Positions 1 to 37,713 of a stretch of DNA of 43,006 nt are shown piece by piece; positions within the stretch are counted from its first letter, which is position 1; each line of letters starts with the position of its first letter. The DNA comes from Ignavibacteriales bacterium (lineage in GTDB: Bacteria > Bacteroidota > Ignavibacteria > Ignavibacteriales > Ignavibacteriaceae), in NCBI GenBank assembly GCA_020061465.1, contig JAGUYG010000043.1, positions 1 to 43,006 of the forward strand, read 5' to 3'. The notes below the pieces were generated by a model, which did not search any database, had not been told where the DNA came from, and worked only from the letters and a program-made list of their open reading frames with translations. A program made the position numbers and the translations under genes.

Positions 1-526
1 ATTTAACATATTTAATGTAAAAGTATATTGATATTAAACTAACGAATTCCATAAATAATTCGCTTAATTCCGGCTAAGATTAAAAAACAAAATTTTTTTT
101 ACTACTTAATTAATAGTGTAAAAATGTGCGTTCTCGGAAAATTTTTTTAAAAAAACTTTATTTTTTTTATGAATGAGTCCGTTCAAATAGGTATGGCATA
201 TAATTTTTCGGCTGCGATTTAGAATTATACTCTTATGATTTGAACGCAAAAATACCTTTTGAGAGTTGCTTCATAAATTTATTACCGTTCATCGCTGAGA
301 TTAAAACCTGTGGTTTGAATTTGGCTAAATGAAGTTTATTTGAAGAAAAATTCGGTTCTTAGGTGAACTAACCTTTATACAAAAAGCTTATTCTTTTAAA
401 TTGACTGAATGAGGTAATCTCACCTCAACCAAAACTATAGGTAATGCAAAAATAATCAAGGGGAGATTTAAGTTTTTTTAATTGCATTAATTTGTAGGTC
501 AACTTGACAAGTTGACCTACAATAAA
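1..526. other. Non-coding AT-rich region at window start
   Basis: No open reading frame with recognisable coding character is seen on either strand. The DNA is very AT-rich with several A and T runs. It contains a 9-bp inverted repeat (CGTTCAAAT at 180-188 and ATTTGAACG at 238-246, about 49 bp apart) and, at its right end, the perfect palindrome listed at 492-522. It lies downstream of the minus-strand gene ending at 527, so most of it is probably 3' spacer. The gene to the left is outside the window. Confidence 0.6.
492..522. repeat. Perfect 15-bp palindrome at the 3' end of the T9SS gene
   Basis: TTGTAGGTCAACTTG is followed by one base and then by its exact reverse complement, ending 4 bp from the stop codon of the minus-strand gene at 527. 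There is no T-run after it on the minus strand, so it is not a classical intrinsic terminator. It resembles a REP-like palindromic repeat, and it may also act as a 3'-end RNA stabiliser. The core GGTCAACTTGA also occurs at the right end of the MITE-like element near 34450-34460. Confidence 0.75.
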
Positions 527-30814: not shown

Positions 30815-31426
30815 ATGCCTTCTAAAAAAATTAAGGTTGCCGTTACGGGCAGCATAGGTTCCGGTAAATCCGCTTTCTGTTCATACTTACGAGAACAGAA
30901 TTTTCGTGTGATTGAAGCCGATGAAGTTTCAAAAGATATATTAAGTTCCGATAGATCTGTACATGATAAAATCCGTAAGGCATTTGGGAATGAATCATTT
31001 GTGAATGGAAAGCCAAACAAAAAGTATTTGGCTAAGAAAGTTTTTTCAAATTCTCAGAACGTTATAATTATCAACTCAATTCTCCATCCTAAAGTAATTC
31101 GCAACATCGAACAAATAATTAAACAAGAATTTATCAAGCGTAATTTGGTTTTTGTTGAAGCTGCATTAATTTATGAAGCCGAGATGGATAGGATGTTTGA
31201 TTTTGTTGTGTTAATTACCGCGGATAAGCAAATACGTTTCGAAAGGAAAAAGAAAACCGATAATTACTCACTCGACGAATTTGAGAGAAGGGACAATAAT
31301 CAGGTTCCGGATGAAGAAAAGAAAAAGAGTGCGGATTTTATTTTCGAAAATAATTCAGGGCTTGAAGAATTATATTCTAAAGCAGATTTACTAATAAAAA
31401 TATTAAACGGAATGTTGTTGAAATGA
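30815..31426 (+). CDS. coaE: Dephospho-CoA kinase
   Basis: 203 residues. The P-loop GSIGSGKS (about residues 11-18) is intact, followed by VIEADEVSKDIL, where the aspartate contacts substrate, and HPKVIRNIEQ. It phosphorylates dephospho-CoA in the last step of CoA synthesis. The following pheA start overlaps its stop by 4 bp (ATGA), so the two are translationally coupled. Confidence 0.93.
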   Translation: MPSKKIKVAVTGSIGSGKSAFCSYLREQNFRVIEADEVSKDILSSDRSVHDKIRKAFGNESFVNGKPNKKYLAKKVFSNSQNVIIINSILHPKVIRNIEQIIKQEFIKRNLVFVEAALIYEAEMDRMFDFVVLITADKQIRFERKKKTDNYSLDEFERRDNNQVPDEEKKKSADFIFENNSGLEELYSKADLLIKILNGMLLK

Positions 31427-32256
31427 TAAAAGTAGCTTTCCAGGGTGAAAGAGGTGCGTTCAGTGAAATTGCTGCCAAAAAATATTTTAACAAGGCTATA
31501 GAAGTCTTGCCTTCATATTCCTTCTTAGAAGTATTCACAAAAGTGAAAAGAGGAACCGCTGATTTTGGAATTATCCCAATCGAAAATACGCTTTACGGAA
31601 GCGTGTTCGAAACGTATGATCTTTTGCTAAAATACTCTTTAAGCATAACCGGTGAGCTTAATCTTCAAATAAACCATCATCTGATGGCAATAAAAAAATA
31701 CAGCTTAAACGAAATCAAAAAAGTATACTCGCATCCGCAGGCTTTAGGACAGTGTTCGAATTTTTTAAGAGAATTAAAAAATGCCAATATTTTTCCTGCT
31801 TATGATACTGCAGGTTCGGCTATAATTTCCCGTGAAGAAAAATTAGAACCAACTGCGGCAATTGCGAGCGCCGAAGCTGCAAAAGTTTATAACTTAAAAA
31901 TTATTAGAAGGAATATTCAGAACAATAGACAGAATTATACTCGTTTCCTGATAATTAGTAAGGGGAAATCCATCCGAAAAACTAACAATCCGAAGTCATC
32001 AATTTGCTTTGAATTAAAAAGTATTCCCGGCGCTCTGTTCAAGGCATTAAGCGTATTTGCGTTGCGTGAAATAGACTTAGTAAAGATTGAATCGCGCCCG
32101 ATTCCCCAAAAACCGTTTCAGTATGTTTTCTATGCGGATCTTGTCGGCAGCTTGGAAAACGCAAAAATAAATCTGGCTTTAAAAAACCTTGGCGAAATTG
32201 CAATTAACATCAAGAAATTTGGTACTTACGAATCAGGCAAAACCTTTATTAGCTGA
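31423..32256 (+). CDS. pheA: Prephenate dehydratase (no chorismate mutase domain)
   Basis: 277 residues: a prephenate dehydratase domain (residues 1-180) with FQGERGAFSE, IPIENTLYGSV and the catalytic threonine in NYTRFLII, then an ACT regulatory domain (residues 195-275) with SIPGALFKALSVFA and the ESRP phenylalanine-binding motif. It converts prephenate to phenylpyruvate for phenylalanine synthesis and is probably inhibited by phenylalanine. It lacks the AroQ domain that is fused to PheA in enterobacteria. A chorismate mutase domain occurs instead on the MltG-type protein at 34658. It overlaps coaE by 4 bp. Confidence 0.95.
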   Translation: MIKVAFQGERGAFSEIAAKKYFNKAIEVLPSYSFLEVFTKVKRGTADFGIIPIENTLYGSVFETYDLLLKYSLSITGELNLQINHHLMAIKKYSLNEIKKVYSHPQALGQCSNFLRELKNANIFPAYDTAGSAIISREEKLEPTAAIASAEAAKVYNLKIIRRNIQNNRQNYTRFLIISKGKSIRKTNNPKSSICFELKSIPGALFKALSVFALREIDLVKIESRPIPQKPFQYVFYADLVGSLENAKINLALKNLGEIAINIKKFGTYESGKTFIS

Positions 32257-32319: not shown

Positions 32320-33222
32320 TTGTCCTTTTTTAATAATGTAATTGTTGTGGCGGCTCAACTTCTGCCTAAAAAAGTGATTAAATTTTTTTCAATGAAGTAT
32401 ATTGCCGGTACAACTCTGGAAGCTGCCGTAGATACAGTACGCAACCTTAACGATAGAGGCATATATGCTACGGTGGATGTACTGGGTGAATCCATAAAAA
32501 ATAAAGCCGAAGCCATTACAGCTAAAAATAAAGCCGCTGAGGTACTTGATGCAATTTCTTTGCATAACTTGATGTCTAATCTATCAATCAAACCTACGCA
32601 AATGGGATTAAGCATCGATGAAAATTTTGCCTATGAACAAATTAAAGAATTAGTACAGAAAGCAAAGGAATTAAATAATTTTATTCGCATCGATATGGAA
32701 GATTCGCCTTACACCGATGCAACATTCAGAATATTCAAAAAGCTGAAAGAGGACTATGACAATGTAGGAGTTGCTGTTCAAGCATATCTGAAAAGAACTT
32801 ATAACGATACGGTGATTTTAAATAAGCTCGGTACAAATTACAGGCTTTGCAAAGGAATTTATATTGAACCGGCAAGTATTGCATATCAGGATAAGCAGGT
32901 TATCAGAGAGAGTTTTCTTAAAGTGCTCGAAACAATCTTTAAAGCAGGAAACTATGCAGGTATCGCAACTCATGATGAATACTTAATAACAGAATCATAT
33001 AAGATGATTGAACGAATGGAAATTACCAAGGATAAATATGAATTTCAGATGCTGCTTGGAGTGAAGGAAAAACTCCGCGATAAAATAAATGCCAACGGAG
33101 ATAAAATAAGAATCTACGTTCCTTTTGGTGAAGATTGGTATCCGTATTCAATTAGAAGACTAAAAGAAAACCCTAATATTGCCGGATATATTTTTAAAAA
33201 TATTTTTTCGCTTAAGAGATGA
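32320..33222 (+). CDS. Proline dehydrogenase (monofunctional)
   Basis: 300 residues forming a FAD-dependent TIM barrel. Motifs are RIDMEDSPYTDAT, VGVAVQAYLKRT, YRLCKGIYIEP, IATHDEYLI, EFQMLLG and the C-terminal YSIRRLKENP helix typical of PRODH. It oxidises proline to pyrroline-5-carboxylate and passes electrons to the quinone pool. The P5C dehydrogenase half of PutA is absent and not in the window, so this is the monofunctional form. It starts at a TTG with CCGGGGAG upstream. tsaD overlaps its end by 4 bp. Confidence 0.92.
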   Translation: MSFFNNVIVVAAQLLPKKVIKFFSMKYIAGTTLEAAVDTVRNLNDRGIYATVDVLGESIKNKAEAITAKNKAAEVLDAISLHNLMSNLSIKPTQMGLSIDENFAYEQIKELVQKAKELNNFIRIDMEDSPYTDATFRIFKKLKEDYDNVGVAVQAYLKRTYNDTVILNKLGTNYRLCKGIYIEPASIAYQDKQVIRESFLKVLETIFKAGNYAGIATHDEYLITESYKMIERMEITKDKYEFQMLLGVKEKLRDKINANGDKIRIYVPFGEDWYPYSIRRLKENPNIAGYIFKNIFSLKR

Positions 33223-34235
33223 ATGTACTAGGTATAGAAACTTCATGCGATGAAACTTCGGTTGCTGTAATATGCAATGAAAAGCTTACCGCAAATCTTA
33301 TCTCTTCTCAAAATTTTCATTCCAATTACGGCGGTGTTGTGCCGGAGCTTTCCAGCCGCGCACATATTCAAATTATAACTCCTTTGGTTAAAGAAGCATT
33401 AAGCAAATCAAATTTGAAGCTGGAAGAATTAGACCTTATTTGTGCTACTGCAGGACCAGGTTTGATCGGTGCACTGTTAGTCGGGTTAACATTTGCAAAA
33501 GGTTTAGCATTTACACTTAAAAAACCGTTCGTAGGAGTAAACCATATTGAAGGTCATATTTACTCCGGATTTTTAATGAAGGAGAAACCTGAGTTTCCGA
33601 TTCTTGTTTTAGTAGTTTCCGGAGGGCATACTCTTTTACTGCGTGTAAATAGTTTTACCGCTATAAAAAAGATTGGCTCAACCGTTGATGATGCCGCAGG
33701 TGAGGCATTTGATAAAGTTGCTAAAATGCTTGGTTTAGGTTACCCGGGAGGTCCCAAAATTCAGCAGGCAGCTTCAATGGGGAATCCCGATAAAATTAAA
33801 TTTCCCGTAGCCGAACTGAAGGAAAAATATAATTTTTCATTCAGCGGACTTAAAACTGCAGTGCTTAGATATATCCAAAAAAATTATGCCGATGCTGTTG
33901 AAATTTCCCTGAGCGATAAGAATGATATTGCTGCTTCATTTCAGAAAGCTGTAATATCGGCACTCGTGAGAAACACAAAAAAAGCTTTGGAAGAATTTGA
34001 GGTGAATTCATTGTCATTAGTTGGTGGTGTAGCAGCTAATGAATCGTTACGTACCTCATTCATAAACTTAGGCGAGAGATATAACAAGAAAGTTAGCATC
34101 CCACGAATGGAATTTTGTGGAGATAATGCAGCAATGATAGCTTTTCGAGGAGAGAAGCTTTTTGAAGCGGGTATAACGTCTCCTTTAAGTCTTAGCCCTT
34201 ACCCGGGTTTATCTGTGGCGGATTTTTCTGGATGA
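33219..34235 (+). CDS. tsaD: tRNA threonylcarbamoyladenosine transferase TsaD
   Basis: 338 residues, normal length. The N-terminal IETSCDETSVAV phosphate motif, NHIEGHIY (metal-binding histidines), SGGHTLLL and GGVAANESLR near the C-terminus are all present. With TsaB and TsaE it forms t6A at position 37 of ANN-decoding tRNAs. It overlaps the proline dehydrogenase stop by 4 bp, ending a tight coaE-pheA ... tsaD run, and is followed 16 bp later by the MITE-like element. Confidence 0.96.
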   Translation: MNVLGIETSCDETSVAVICNEKLTANLISSQNFHSNYGGVVPELSSRAHIQIITPLVKEALSKSNLKLEELDLICATAGPGLIGALLVGLTFAKGLAFTLKKPFVGVNHIEGHIYSGFLMKEKPEFPILVLVVSGGHTLLLRVNSFTAIKKIGSTVDDAAGEAFDKVAKMLGLGYPGGPKIQQAASMGNPDKIKFPVAELKEKYNFSFSGLKTAVLRYIQKNYADAVEISLSDKNDIAASFQKAVISALVRNTKKALEEFEVNSLSLVGGVAANESLRTSFINLGERYNKKVSIPRMEFCGDNAAMIAFRGEKLFEAGITSPLSLSPYPGLSVADFSG

Positions 34236-34657: not shown

Positions 34658-36052
34658 ATGGAAAACATCTATAAAAAAATAGAAACGGAGCTAAATACTT
34701 TAAGTTTTCAAGAGCGTGAAGAAATCTTAACAAAGCTGCGTACAGAAGTAGATTTAATAGATAAAGAAATAGTTAAACTATTAAGCAGCAGAACTCTACA
34801 TTCTGTATTGATAGGTCGGGTTAAGCGTTCGATGGGGCTGCCAACGTACTCACCGAAAAGAGAAAAAGAAATAGCTGAAAAAATTTCCAACTATTTTAAA
34901 GAGCCGTTAAGTCGCGAAGCATTGCTTAGAATCTATGAAAGAATAATTGACGAATCACGAGCGATTCAAAGAGAAGAAGCAAACCGCGGGAACATTTTCA
35001 ATATATCGAGTGCATTCGTGAAAAAAGGTTTCGGCAAGCTGTTCAATAAAAAAGAATTGCTCCTGGTGATTTTTTTCTTCATAATAATTCTTACGCTGCT
35101 TTATTATACCTTTTTTACATCAAACTATTACAGCGGTAATTCTCCGGTAAGATTTGAAATAAAAAGAGGTGAAACATTTAACTCCGTCGTTGAAAAACTT
35201 TATAATGAAGGAATAATTCCAAGCAAATTCAACATGAAAACAGCCGCTTTCATATACAGTGCAGAGAAGCGTATACGAGCTGCAAGATACGATATTCCTA
35301 ACGGCTTGAGTTATCTCGAACTAATAGATTTATTTGTGAAAGGCGATGCTGATTTTCTGGTACAGGTGAATGTATACAACGGATCCACTTTACCCTGGCT
35401 TGCATCAAGACTGCGCCGGGAAGCAAGAATTGATTCGGTTTCATTCATACAAAAAGCAATCGATAAAAACTTTGTTCAATCGCTTGGACTAAATGCCAAT
35501 ACCGTGGAGGGGTATCTTTTCCCTCGTGATTATTTTTTGTATGAACGCTCGAATCCCAAAGAAGTAATTGAATTATTTGTAAACGGTTTTCGTAATTTCA
35601 TGACAGACAGCCTGATTAAAAGATCGGAATCATTGGGCTTCTCAATTCACAAAATAATTACTCTTGCTTCAATAATTGAAGGCGAAACAAATAAAGTTGA
35701 GGAGATGCCGGTTATTTCAGGAGTTTATCATAACAGATTAAAAGCCGGCATGAAGCTTCAAGCAGACCCGACCGTTCAGTATTTACAGATGAATGGTTGG
35801 AAAAGACTTTTATACAACGACTTGCAAATTGATTCACCTTATAACACATATAGATATCATGGATTACCTCCCGGACCAATTAATAATCCGGGAAAAGCGG
35901 CAATCCTTGCCTCGCTATATCCGCAAAAGCACAATTACTTTTTTTTCGTGGCAGACAGCAAGGGAGGACATAAGTTTGCAGAAAATTATGCGCAGCATTT
36001 GCGCTATGTAAGAGAGTACAGAGAATGGTTAAGAAATCAAAAGAACAACTAA
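34658..36052 (+). CDS. mltG: Chorismate mutase (AroQ)-MltG endolytic transglycosylase fusion
   Basis: 464 residues. Residues about 25-107 form an AroQ-class chorismate mutase domain. By alignment with the E. coli mutase, the active-site residues are present as Arg28, Arg45, Lys56, Arg68, Glu69, Ser100 and Gln104; only the position of Asp48 is changed (Ser65). A single membrane helix follows (about 134-153), then a full YceG/MltG domain with FEIKRGETFNSVVEKL, VEGYLFPRDYFL, the catalytic Glu341 in LASIIEGETN, and VYHNRLKAGMKLQADPTVQY. The topology is sensible: mutase in the cytoplasm, glycan-cutting domain in the periplasm. MltG cuts nascent glycan strands and sets their length. An in-frame stop (34652-34654) just before the ATG fixes the start. 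The next gene overlaps by 28 bp. Confidence 0.88.
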   Translation: MENIYKKIETELNTLSFQEREEILTKLRTEVDLIDKEIVKLLSSRTLHSVLIGRVKRSMGLPTYSPKREKEIAEKISNYFKEPLSREALLRIYERIIDESRAIQREEANRGNIFNISSAFVKKGFGKLFNKKELLLVIFFFIIILTLLYYTFFTSNYYSGNSPVRFEIKRGETFNSVVEKLYNEGIIPSKFNMKTAAFIYSAEKRIRAARYDIPNGLSYLELIDLFVKGDADFLVQVNVYNGSTLPWLASRLRREARIDSVSFIQKAIDKNFVQSLGLNANTVEGYLFPRDYFLYERSNPKEVIELFVNGFRNFMTDSLIKRSESLGFSIHKIITLASIIEGETNKVEEMPVISGVYHNRLKAGMKLQADPTVQYLQMNGWKRLLYNDLQIDSPYNTYRYHGLPPGPINNPGKAAILASLYPQKHNYFFFVADSKGGHKFAENYAQHLRYVREYREWLRNQKNN

Positions 36053-37713
36053 CTAATACAGCGCTGATTTGCTTCGGATTATTTTTATCCGGCTGTGCTA
36101 ATCAATTACCGCCGGGAGGAGGTGACATTGATCGTATACCGCCGGAGATAGCGGAAGTTTATCCGCCTGATGAAACTATTAACTTCAATGACAAATATTT
36201 TGAACTTGGATTTTCGGAGTTTGTCGATAAAAGATCTGTAAAAGATGCAATCTTCATCTCTCCGGCATTCGACGGAGAACCTGAATTGGATTGGAGCGGA
36301 AGGTATGTAAGAATTTATTTCCCCTCGAAACTACGCGACAGCACTACTTACATAGTAACAATCGGCACTGACGTTGTCGATCATAACAATAAAAATCGAA
36401 TGGCTGAATCATTCACATTTGCCTTTTCAACCGGCGATAAAATTGACCGCAAAATGATCACAGGAAGAGTATACGATGAAAAACCCGAAGGTGTTATGCT
36501 GTTCGCATATAAAGTAACGGGTAATGAAATAAATCCCTCCGATACAAAACCGGATTACATTTCACAAACCGGTTTAAACGGACAATATCGTCTTGCCGGT
36601 TTAGCTGCCGGCTCTTATAGAGTTTTTGCAATTCAGGATGAGTTTCGCGATTTGCTTTATCAATTAGAGCAGGATAAATATGGCGCACCATACAAAGATG
36701 TATATTTAAGCGAAGAAGATACTCTTTTTGCTGAGCTCAATTTCTTTTTAACACCGGGAGATACTTCGGCTCCGGTACTGCAAAGTGCAGTAATGACGGA
36801 TCAAAATCATATTTTGCTGAACTTTAGTGAACCGATTGATTCCACCATAATAAGATCAAATAATTTTTGGATAATGGATTCAACATCAAATCAAAAATTT
36901 AATCCGCTCTACGCTTATAAGGGAAATACTAAACCGCATGAGCTAGTTTTAAGCACTAACCGTGAAATCAAAGCAGAAAACAAAATGTATGTTTTTGTGG
37001 ATTCGTTAAAAGACAAGAGAGGCAATTTGAATAAAAATAATTTTGCAGCACTTACAGTTTCCGATTTACCCGATACAATTAAACTCGATATTAGCAAAAC
37101 AATTCCTGTTAATAATAGCGACCGGGTAGATTTTCTTAATCCTAAAATATTTTTCCAATTTAACGATGGAATCGATTCGCTTGAGTTGAAAAAGAATATT
37201 TCTTTCAGCGATACCGGTGGAACAAACATATCATATCACGTTAATTTTTTAGATGATGCTTCCTTCATCATTGAGCCTGCTGCGCGTCTTTATCCCTTGA
37301 ATCATTATGTAATTCAGATAAATCTCTCAAATCTTCAGGATGCTGCGGGAAACAAAATAGATTCGGTTTATAAATTTAAGTTTAAGACTATTTCAGGGCT
37401 TGATTTTACCGGCGTCTCGGGAACGCTGCTGGATTTTGATGAGGAGAAAAATCCTTTAATAGTGTTAGAATCGATTGCAGAAAAAAGGCAGTTCAAACAA
37501 AAAATAAGCAGCAAAGGTAAATTCAATTTTGAACGTATGGATGCCGGAAAATATTTATTGTGGACTTTCTACGATAAGGACAGTTCAGGAGTATTTGACT
37601 ATGGCTGGGTAAATCCTTACAAGCCCTCTTCACAGTTTTCTGTTTACCCCGATACGCTTGATTTAAGACCGCGATGGTCGGTAACGGATTTGAAATTCAG
37701 ATTCGACAGGTAA
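36025..37713 (+). CDS. Lipoprotein with SbsA/Big_5-type Ig-like domains
   Basis: 562 residues. The N-terminus is a lipoprotein signal with lipobox LFLSGC (cysteine about residue 24), followed by NQLPPGGGDIDRIPPEI, a start typical of Bacteroidota Ig-like lipoproteins. Residues about 40-140 form an SbsA-like Ig domain (GFSEFVDKRSVKDAIFISP ... YIVTIGTDVVDHNNK), then a carboxypeptidase-regulatory-like segment (LNGQYRLAGLAAGSYRVFA), then further Ig-like regions and a second regulatory-like end (GKFNFERMDAGKYLLW). It is probably anchored in the outer membrane; the role is unknown. The start codon lies 28 bp inside mltG, which suggests coupled expression and an envelope role. Confidence 0.85.
   Translation: MVKKSKEQLTNTALICFGLFLSGCANQLPPGGGDIDRIPPEIAEVYPPDETINFNDKYFELGFSEFVDKRSVKDAIFISPAFDGEPELDWSGRYVRIYFPSKLRDSTTYIVTIGTDVVDHNNKNRMAESFTFAFSTGDKIDRKMITGRVYDEKPEGVMLFAYKVTGNEINPSDTKPDYISQTGLNGQYRLAGLAAGSYRVFAIQDEFRDLLYQLEQDKYGAPYKDVYLSEEDTLFAELNFFLTPGDTSAPVLQSAVMTDQNHILLNFSEPIDSTIIRSNNFWIMDSTSNQKFNPLYAYKGNTKPHELVLSTNREIKAENKMYVFVDSLKDKRGNLNKNNFAALTVSDLPDTIKLDISKTIPVNNSDRVDFLNPKIFFQFNDGIDSLELKKNISFSDTGGTNISYHVNFLDDASFIIEPAARLYPLNHYVIQINLSNLQDAAGNKIDSVYKFKFKTISGLDFTGVSGTLLDFDEEKNPLIVLESIAEKRQFKQKISSKGKFNFERMDAGKYLLWTFYDKDSSGVFDYGWVNPYKPSSQFSVYPDTLDLRPRWSVTDLKFRFDR

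Follow-up and report, generated by a model that had tools for sequence, protein, structure and literature searches.

Within the window (the whole 43,006-nucleotide stretch of DNA that was analysed), one forward-strand gene at 34658..36052 encodes a 464-amino-acid protein in which an AroQ-type chorismate mutase, a single membrane helix and an MltG domain are read continuously, without an internal stop. Chorismate mutase opens the route to phenylalanine and tyrosine, and MltG (YceG), an endolytic transglycosylase, trims new cell wall. The gene has Pfam matches for both enzymes and fused counterparts in 20 other genomes of its family. We judge it probable that the product is an inner-membrane protein with two working enzymes, whose AroQ half is the cell's ordinary and only mutase, joined to MltG after the loss of a stop codon. 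Cytoplasmic AroQ would supply prephenate to the PheA whose gene lies 2.4 kb upstream, and also to TyrA, encoded elsewhere; the outer part would be an ordinary MltG transglycosylase; and the fusion would have arisen when the stop codon between neighbouring, often overlapping aroQ and mltG genes was lost. The observations that carry this reading are the protein's architecture, its intact motifs, its standing as the only CM_2 match, gene order, changes between fused and split states, and a constraint on the mutase linked to need.

Architecture of the fused protein

The Pfam profile CM_2 matched residues 27-105 (34736..34972) over its full length (profile 1-80 of 80) at 65.8 bits (E 4.2e-18; curated cut-off, 27 bits), and YceG matched residues 166-452 (35153..36013) at 264.5 bits (E 1.5e-78), above its cut-off. 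These strong matches bear out the earlier note, which had described AroQ, a membrane helix and a full MltG in one frame and had proposed both profiles as a check. The note had also listed seven matches to catalytic residues and one difference, Asp48 to Ser65. Alignment to E. coli PheA upheld this list: R28, R45, K56 and R68 correspond to R11, R28, K39 and R51; E69, S100 and Q104 to E52, S84 and Q88; and S65 occupies the position of D48. Across 40 fused rows, representing 32 distinct genomes, R11, R28, K39, R51, E52 and S84 were identical throughout (40 of 40). The D48 position holds Ser in 18 rows and Asn in 22, and the Q88 position Gln in 26 and Glu in 14, the Glu rows belonging to families f10 and f18. 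Because the D48 position is also variable in unfused and otherwise fused mutases, its change alone is no argument for inactivity.

An AlphaFold2 model of the fused protein, built with 30 fused sequences as input, had a mean pLDDT of 86.5 and placed helices at residues 17-59, 66-77 and 86-110, then at 131-153, followed by MltG. Using Foldseek, its AroQ part matched 2d8d_A (target TM 0.92, 0.9 Å over 77 columns) and the solved mutase 1ecm_A (0.85), and the model was also paired with MltG structures. The structure prediction suggested earlier thus yielded the three-helix AroQ fold, as seen in the match to 2d8d. By sequence, residues 17-111 found the AroQ mutases 2d8d (E 4.4e-10) and 1ecm (E 0.0025) in the PDB, and the whole protein ranked MltG proteins first (8yq7, E 3.4e-37). 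Structures of PchB, the AroQ-type isochorismate-pyruvate lyase that would be expected in a siderophore or salicylate gene context, ranked below mutases in Foldseek, although both folds are alike; the four upstream neighbours scanned were CoaE, PDT, Pro_dh and TsaD. A helical extension N-terminal of AroQ (residues 1-23, 34658-34726) occurs in the family's fused and split proteins; in f10 and f18 it is shortened or takes another form.

The mutase is followed by a basic linker (residues 106-130, 34973..35047), part of it modelled at low confidence (pLDDT <50 at residues 119-126); from one fused group to another it varies in both length and sequence. Within it lies an in-frame GTG (Val121, 35018..35020), at the site of the presumed mltG start in several unfused relatives. 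Model and hydropathy predict a transmembrane helix at residues 131-153 (35048..35116), the one hydrophobic segment in the protein (peak window 134-152); the 30 residues before it hold 7 Lys/Arg and 3 Asp/Glu, and the 15 after it hold 1 Lys/Arg. By the positive-inside rule, one helix with a basic N-terminal side should place the mutase in the cytoplasm, the site of chorismate, and MltG outside. In the YceG/MltG domain, matched by both profile and structure, the putative catalytic residue is Glu343 (codon 35684..35686), which is invariant in 30 fused proteins and aligned to the catalytic Glu of E. coli MltG, E218. Profile match, catalytic Glu and a single N-terminal anchor ahead of YceG are all present, and in anchor, YceG domain and conserved Glu the protein resembles the MltG proteins of E. 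coli (2r1f), Listeria (4iiw) and Acinetobacter (8yq7).

A sole mutase and its prephenate users

The fused domain is the single CM_2 match in the window's genome (4.2 Mb, estimated 100% complete), where AroH (CM_1) gave 0 matches at E <= 0.001; a second mutase, which the earlier note had held up as part of a possible refutation, was found in this genome in neither form. Exactly one CM_2 match was found in 21 of 21 fused genomes of the window's family and, among the matches listed, in 14 of 15 fused f10/f18 genomes, G099 having two. Taking all 36 fused genomes together, 35 have no CM_2 besides the fused domain, among the matches listed. AroH was also missing from all 33 other fused genomes searched (G306 and G310 lie outside that search), and we reject a second mutase of AroH type. 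For the window we likewise reject an inactive relic: the motif is intact, the genome has no other CM_2 match, and there is strong constraint on related fused domains.

Upstream on the same strand as the fusion lies pheA (31423..32256, forward; PDT and a weak ACT match), encoding prephenate dehydratase, the enzyme that consumes the mutase's product. Between pheA and tsaD stands a proline dehydrogenase-like gene (32320..33222, forward), and tsaD (33219..34235, forward) is the immediate upstream neighbour, both identified by profile match. Downstream, a forward gene of 562 amino acids (36025..37713), with a lipoprotein-like N terminus by eye, overlaps the fusion gene by 28 nt. Neither Rfam at gathering scores nor ARAGORN gave a match in the 422 bp that precede the fusion gene, and an RNA element or tRNA at this site was rejected.

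This gene order recurs. In the family, 27 genomes combine a PDT match with an MltG-linked mutase that is their single CM_2 match; in 25 of these PDT lies upstream on the same strand, 2314-2768 bp separating the two domains, and in the remaining 2 it is on another contig. Where the genome has a second mutase, the dehydratase is part of a long CM-PDT fusion or lies on another contig. PDT was present in all 19 f10/f18 genomes (15 fused, 4 split) and in 17 of 21 fused family genomes, those lacking a match being G157 and the less complete G306, G310 and G311. PDH was found in the window's genome; of 15 other family genomes searched that are fused and PDT-positive, 14 had a match above the cut-off, and the best match in the fused genome G251 fell under it. 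AroC was found in 35 of 36 genomes searched.

Gene content points the same way. Among 49 good family genomes, 40 have both CM and PDT, 4 have CM only, none has PDT only and 5 have neither (Fisher p 6.6e-5, not corrected for relatedness). Genus g11 shows none of the set, with CM, PDT and PDH matches in 0 of 6 genomes (three of the six <85% complete), and its members are predicted Phe/Tyr auxotrophs on this gene content. In four g11 genomes (L086, L087, L091 and L101), a tsaD-like frame, assigned by eye, runs directly into an unfused mltG; MltG there is therefore without a mutase.

Distribution of fused and split forms

Among 80 genomes of the window's family, a hand count gives 21 with the fusion. 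Fifteen more sampled genomes from two other families of the class (f10, 8; f18, 7) bring the total to 36 genomes in three families, including G183, a single contig of 4.2 Mb. G308 was counted as fused, since its flagged stop lies at the C-terminal end and both domains share one frame. A scan of named genomes, in which 80 of 109 loci were kept, added fused records of Candidatus Kryptonium thompsonii (L165), Chrysopegis kryptomonas (L158) and a Thermokryptus (L152). The survey of relatives that had been proposed thus found the fusion in many separate assemblies; most of the genomes are metagenome assemblies.

The same two genes also occur unfused, in the same order and on the same strand, in 32 of 63 CM rows among the matches listed (f5, 18; f19, 10; f10, 4). 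The rest comprise 14 fused rows, 5 with MltG elsewhere (three f24, one f19, one f6) and 12 whose MltG row is outside the matches listed. This count excludes the window's family, frames of other-fusion length and the short-frame rows G073, G173, G248, G240 and G282; G073 has MltG on another contig. Adjacent unfused pairs were found, too, in six f7 genomes and, by hand count, in 24 of the 80 from the window's family. Split pairs in Calditrichota (L138, L139, L148, L168, L170, L173 and L174) extend the adjacency of aroQ and mltG across two phyla. Acidobacteriota mutases kept from the genome scan had no MltG match within the fetched flanks. L164, on a contig titled Caldisericaceae, has an MltG that clusters with Calditrichota in the tree and is possibly mislabelled or misbinned.

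Repeated changes between fused and split states

Some split pairs of aroQ and mltG overlap, the shortest overlaps being a few bases; others abut, or share a reading frame interrupted by a single stop. In genus g15, 10 of 12 fusions carry an in-frame ATG at the place of the presumed mltG start, which is where relatives G341, G125, G319 and G296 have theirs, and the window's fusion has its GTG there. The printed fused genes of other family genera have no start codon at that place. The in-frame ATG or GTG is most simply read as a likely remnant of the old mltG start, the trace of a lost stop codon.

We placed 99 rows in a tree of the MltG domain (37 fused, 50 split and 12 without aroQ), made by a quick method. 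The fused label requires 11 changes on this tree, at least 6 of them forced by well-supported branches, and such counts carry no direction. A single clade of all fused rows was rejected (p 2.5e-5), as was a single clade of the family's 21 fused rows (p 0.0037), and genus g46 alone contains both forms. Fused and split states have thus changed repeatedly, several splits from fewer fusions being possible. We infer the direction of each change, except where a remnant start codon may hint at it.

Constraint on the mutase domain

The divergence of the mutase relative to that of MltG differed with genomic context. The mean CM/MltG ratio was 0.66 where the mutase is sole and PDT is present (n=25), 1.26 where a second mutase exists (n=8) and 1.73 in genomes with neither a PDT nor a PDH match (n=4); by genus means, 6 versus 11, p was 0.0015. 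The reference group comprises 25 of the 27 sole-mutase, PDT-positive genomes (G313 is absent and G342, with a cut MltG, was dropped); the comparisons are made among its own members, 9 of which belong to genus g15. The second-mutase group excludes G298, a remnant, and G328, a fragment. Among the eight redundant copies, Ser84 is lost in two (Phe in G295, Met in G299), and G335, at 0.71, lies within the reference range. In G298, only a 55-residue aroQ remnant precedes mltG, and the genome has two other CM_2 domains. With ratios lower for a sole mutase and higher for a redundant one, constraint tends to follow the need for prephenate.

Within fused genes, dS of the mutase domain was computable for 11 of 29 pairs, and in these its dN/dS was 0.016-0.084; the window's gene is too distant from other fused genes to enter this comparison. 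Six incomplete or contaminated genomes (G339, G347, G340, G311, G310 and G306), each with an MltG-linked mutase and no PDT match, stand outside the test groups; three have high and three low CM/MltG ratios.

Four genomes keep a mutase with no PDT or PDH match and with AroC present: G157, in which it is fused (L083), and G329, G330 and G332, in which aroQ is adjacent (L088-L090). The active site is in place in all four, G157 having Thr for Ser84, and G157 and G329 are each 99% complete. For the G330/G332 pair, dN/dS was still 0.113 for the mutase, against 0.062 for MltG, and the domain may therefore be of some use even where known prephenate use has ended. Cases like G157 reflect either another use of prephenate, missed genes, another task of the domain or decay under way.

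Discussion

Several observations count against an ordinary mutase joined to MltG by loss of a stop codon: the retention in G157, G329, G330 and G332, the ratio of G335, an adjacency across two phyla that exceeds what chance neighbours would lead one to expect, the four fused family genomes without PDT, the sub-threshold PDH match of G251 and the change of Q88 to Glu in f10 and f18. Among the other explanations, a sequencing or assembly error that joined two genes is hardly credible. A small change could make the difference between fused and split, since unfused neighbours exist in frame with one stop between them (TAG in G125, TAA in G339), but the same fusion stands in 36 genomes of three families and in the named Kryptonia records, and its recurrence in independently assembled genomes leads us to reject an artefact for the group. 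We also think it very unlikely that AroQ serves mainly as a dimerizer, an obligate dimer that pairs MltG molecules with catalysis secondary or gone. AroQ does fold as a dimer, as in E. coli chorismate mutase, and in G157 the fused domain persists although neither PDT nor PDH was matched. However, the six catalytic positions are identical in every fused row compared (G157, with its Thr, lies outside that set), and the greater average divergence alongside a second mutase or without known prephenate use runs opposite to the expectation for a structural role, so that the comparison of CM and MltG rates disfavours a purely structural role. Moreover, in an even draw of 294 genomes of the class, MltG was present in 286 and a CM_2 match absent from 133, both figures among the matches listed.

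It is somewhat less improbable, yet still unlikely in our estimate, that AroQ is a sensor or regulator of MltG besides making prephenate. Chorismate, prephenate or an aromatic amino acid, bound at the cytoplasmic dimer, would then alter MltG activity or partners, and wall growth would be tied to aromatic supply, the other possibility raised in the earlier note. Such a bifunctional enzyme-sensor, which we regard as doubtful in this fuller form as well, would let a ligand-dependent AroQ dimer set the activity or placement of MltG, and glycan trimming would follow aromatic supply; G157, which gave no match for a known user of prephenate, would then retain the second job only. MltG of E. faecalis is influenced through its cytoplasmic part, where the kinase IreK phosphorylates T20, and T20 changes alter ceftriaxone resistance (PMC12369325). 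Interdomain crosstalk is reported for a DAHP synthase-AroQ fusion (PMC12202928), and by analogy the two make a control link thinkable. The wide adjacency of aroQ and mltG and the recurrence of the fused state on the tree would also fit it. Against it, linkers differ in length and sequence among fused groups, with residues 119-126 of the window's protein modelled at pLDDT <50, and fused and split forms occur within the one genus g46. The mutase is missing beside mltG in g11 and tends to drift when redundant; MltG is therefore not generally dependent on it.

We accordingly favour the ordinary sole mutase on a membrane protein. Of the two suggestions in the earlier note, the content and order of genes and the divergence rates support the plainer one, in which the cell's mutase simply sits on a membrane protein. 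On this account, both halves would be catalytically active; the protein presumably dimerizes through its AroQ fold, and the joining presumably has little or no regulatory meaning.

Fused mutases are familiar from PheA (CM-PDT), TyrA (CM-PDH) and DAHP synthase-CM, and the window's protein resembles them in joining AroQ, with the same fold and active site, in frame to another enzyme and in that the fused AroQ appears to be the cell's own mutase. In those proteins the partner is soluble and acts in the mutase's pathway, and to our knowledge the known AroQ fusions pair the mutase with enzymes of its own pathway, whereas the partner here is a membrane-bound wall enzyme with no known pathway link. 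AroQ-gamma, too, has its AroQ domain within a protein that enters the membrane system; it carries a signal peptide and is exported to the periplasm, unlike the AroQ described here, which precedes the anchor and is predicted to be cytoplasmic. The cytoplasmic part of E. coli MltG amounts to a few residues. A few MltG proteins, that of E. faecalis for example, have an extended cytoplasmic segment, predicted there to be disordered (PMC12369325). In contrast to both, the cytoplasmic part here is a folded enzyme domain. Our literature search, outside which most subscription papers and preprints fell, found no description of an AroQ-MltG fusion; in the one searched paper that mentions both chorismate mutase and MltG, the mutase was listed in a table as a part of TyrA.

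Other AroQ frames were seen in the class. Frames of ~453 amino acids (L047:882-2246, L048, L049, L050 and L051), from four other families (f13, f14, f20 and f31), combine AroC, by eye, with a C-terminal AroQ, by HMM match, placing consecutive pathway steps in one protein. Frames of ~675 amino acids (L032, L033 and L036) unite three enzymes, with AroQ at the N terminus, a PDT match in the same frame and, read by eye, a DAHP synthase along with ACT. In several genomes with this frame, the aroQ beside mltG is missing or changes faster. The PDB title of 2r1f, the E. coli MltG structure, is predicted aminodeoxychorismate lyase. In E. coli, mltG adjoins pabC, so a chorismate-branch gene may neighbour mltG in two distant groups.

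The hosts are little-known environmental bacteria, and many relatives share the fusion. Fused, split, mutase-lost and mutase-redundant variants coexist in one family, so whether the join is informative or neutral is directly testable. In these cells, a central metabolic enzyme, the sole one of its kind found, is carried on a wall enzyme of the inner membrane.
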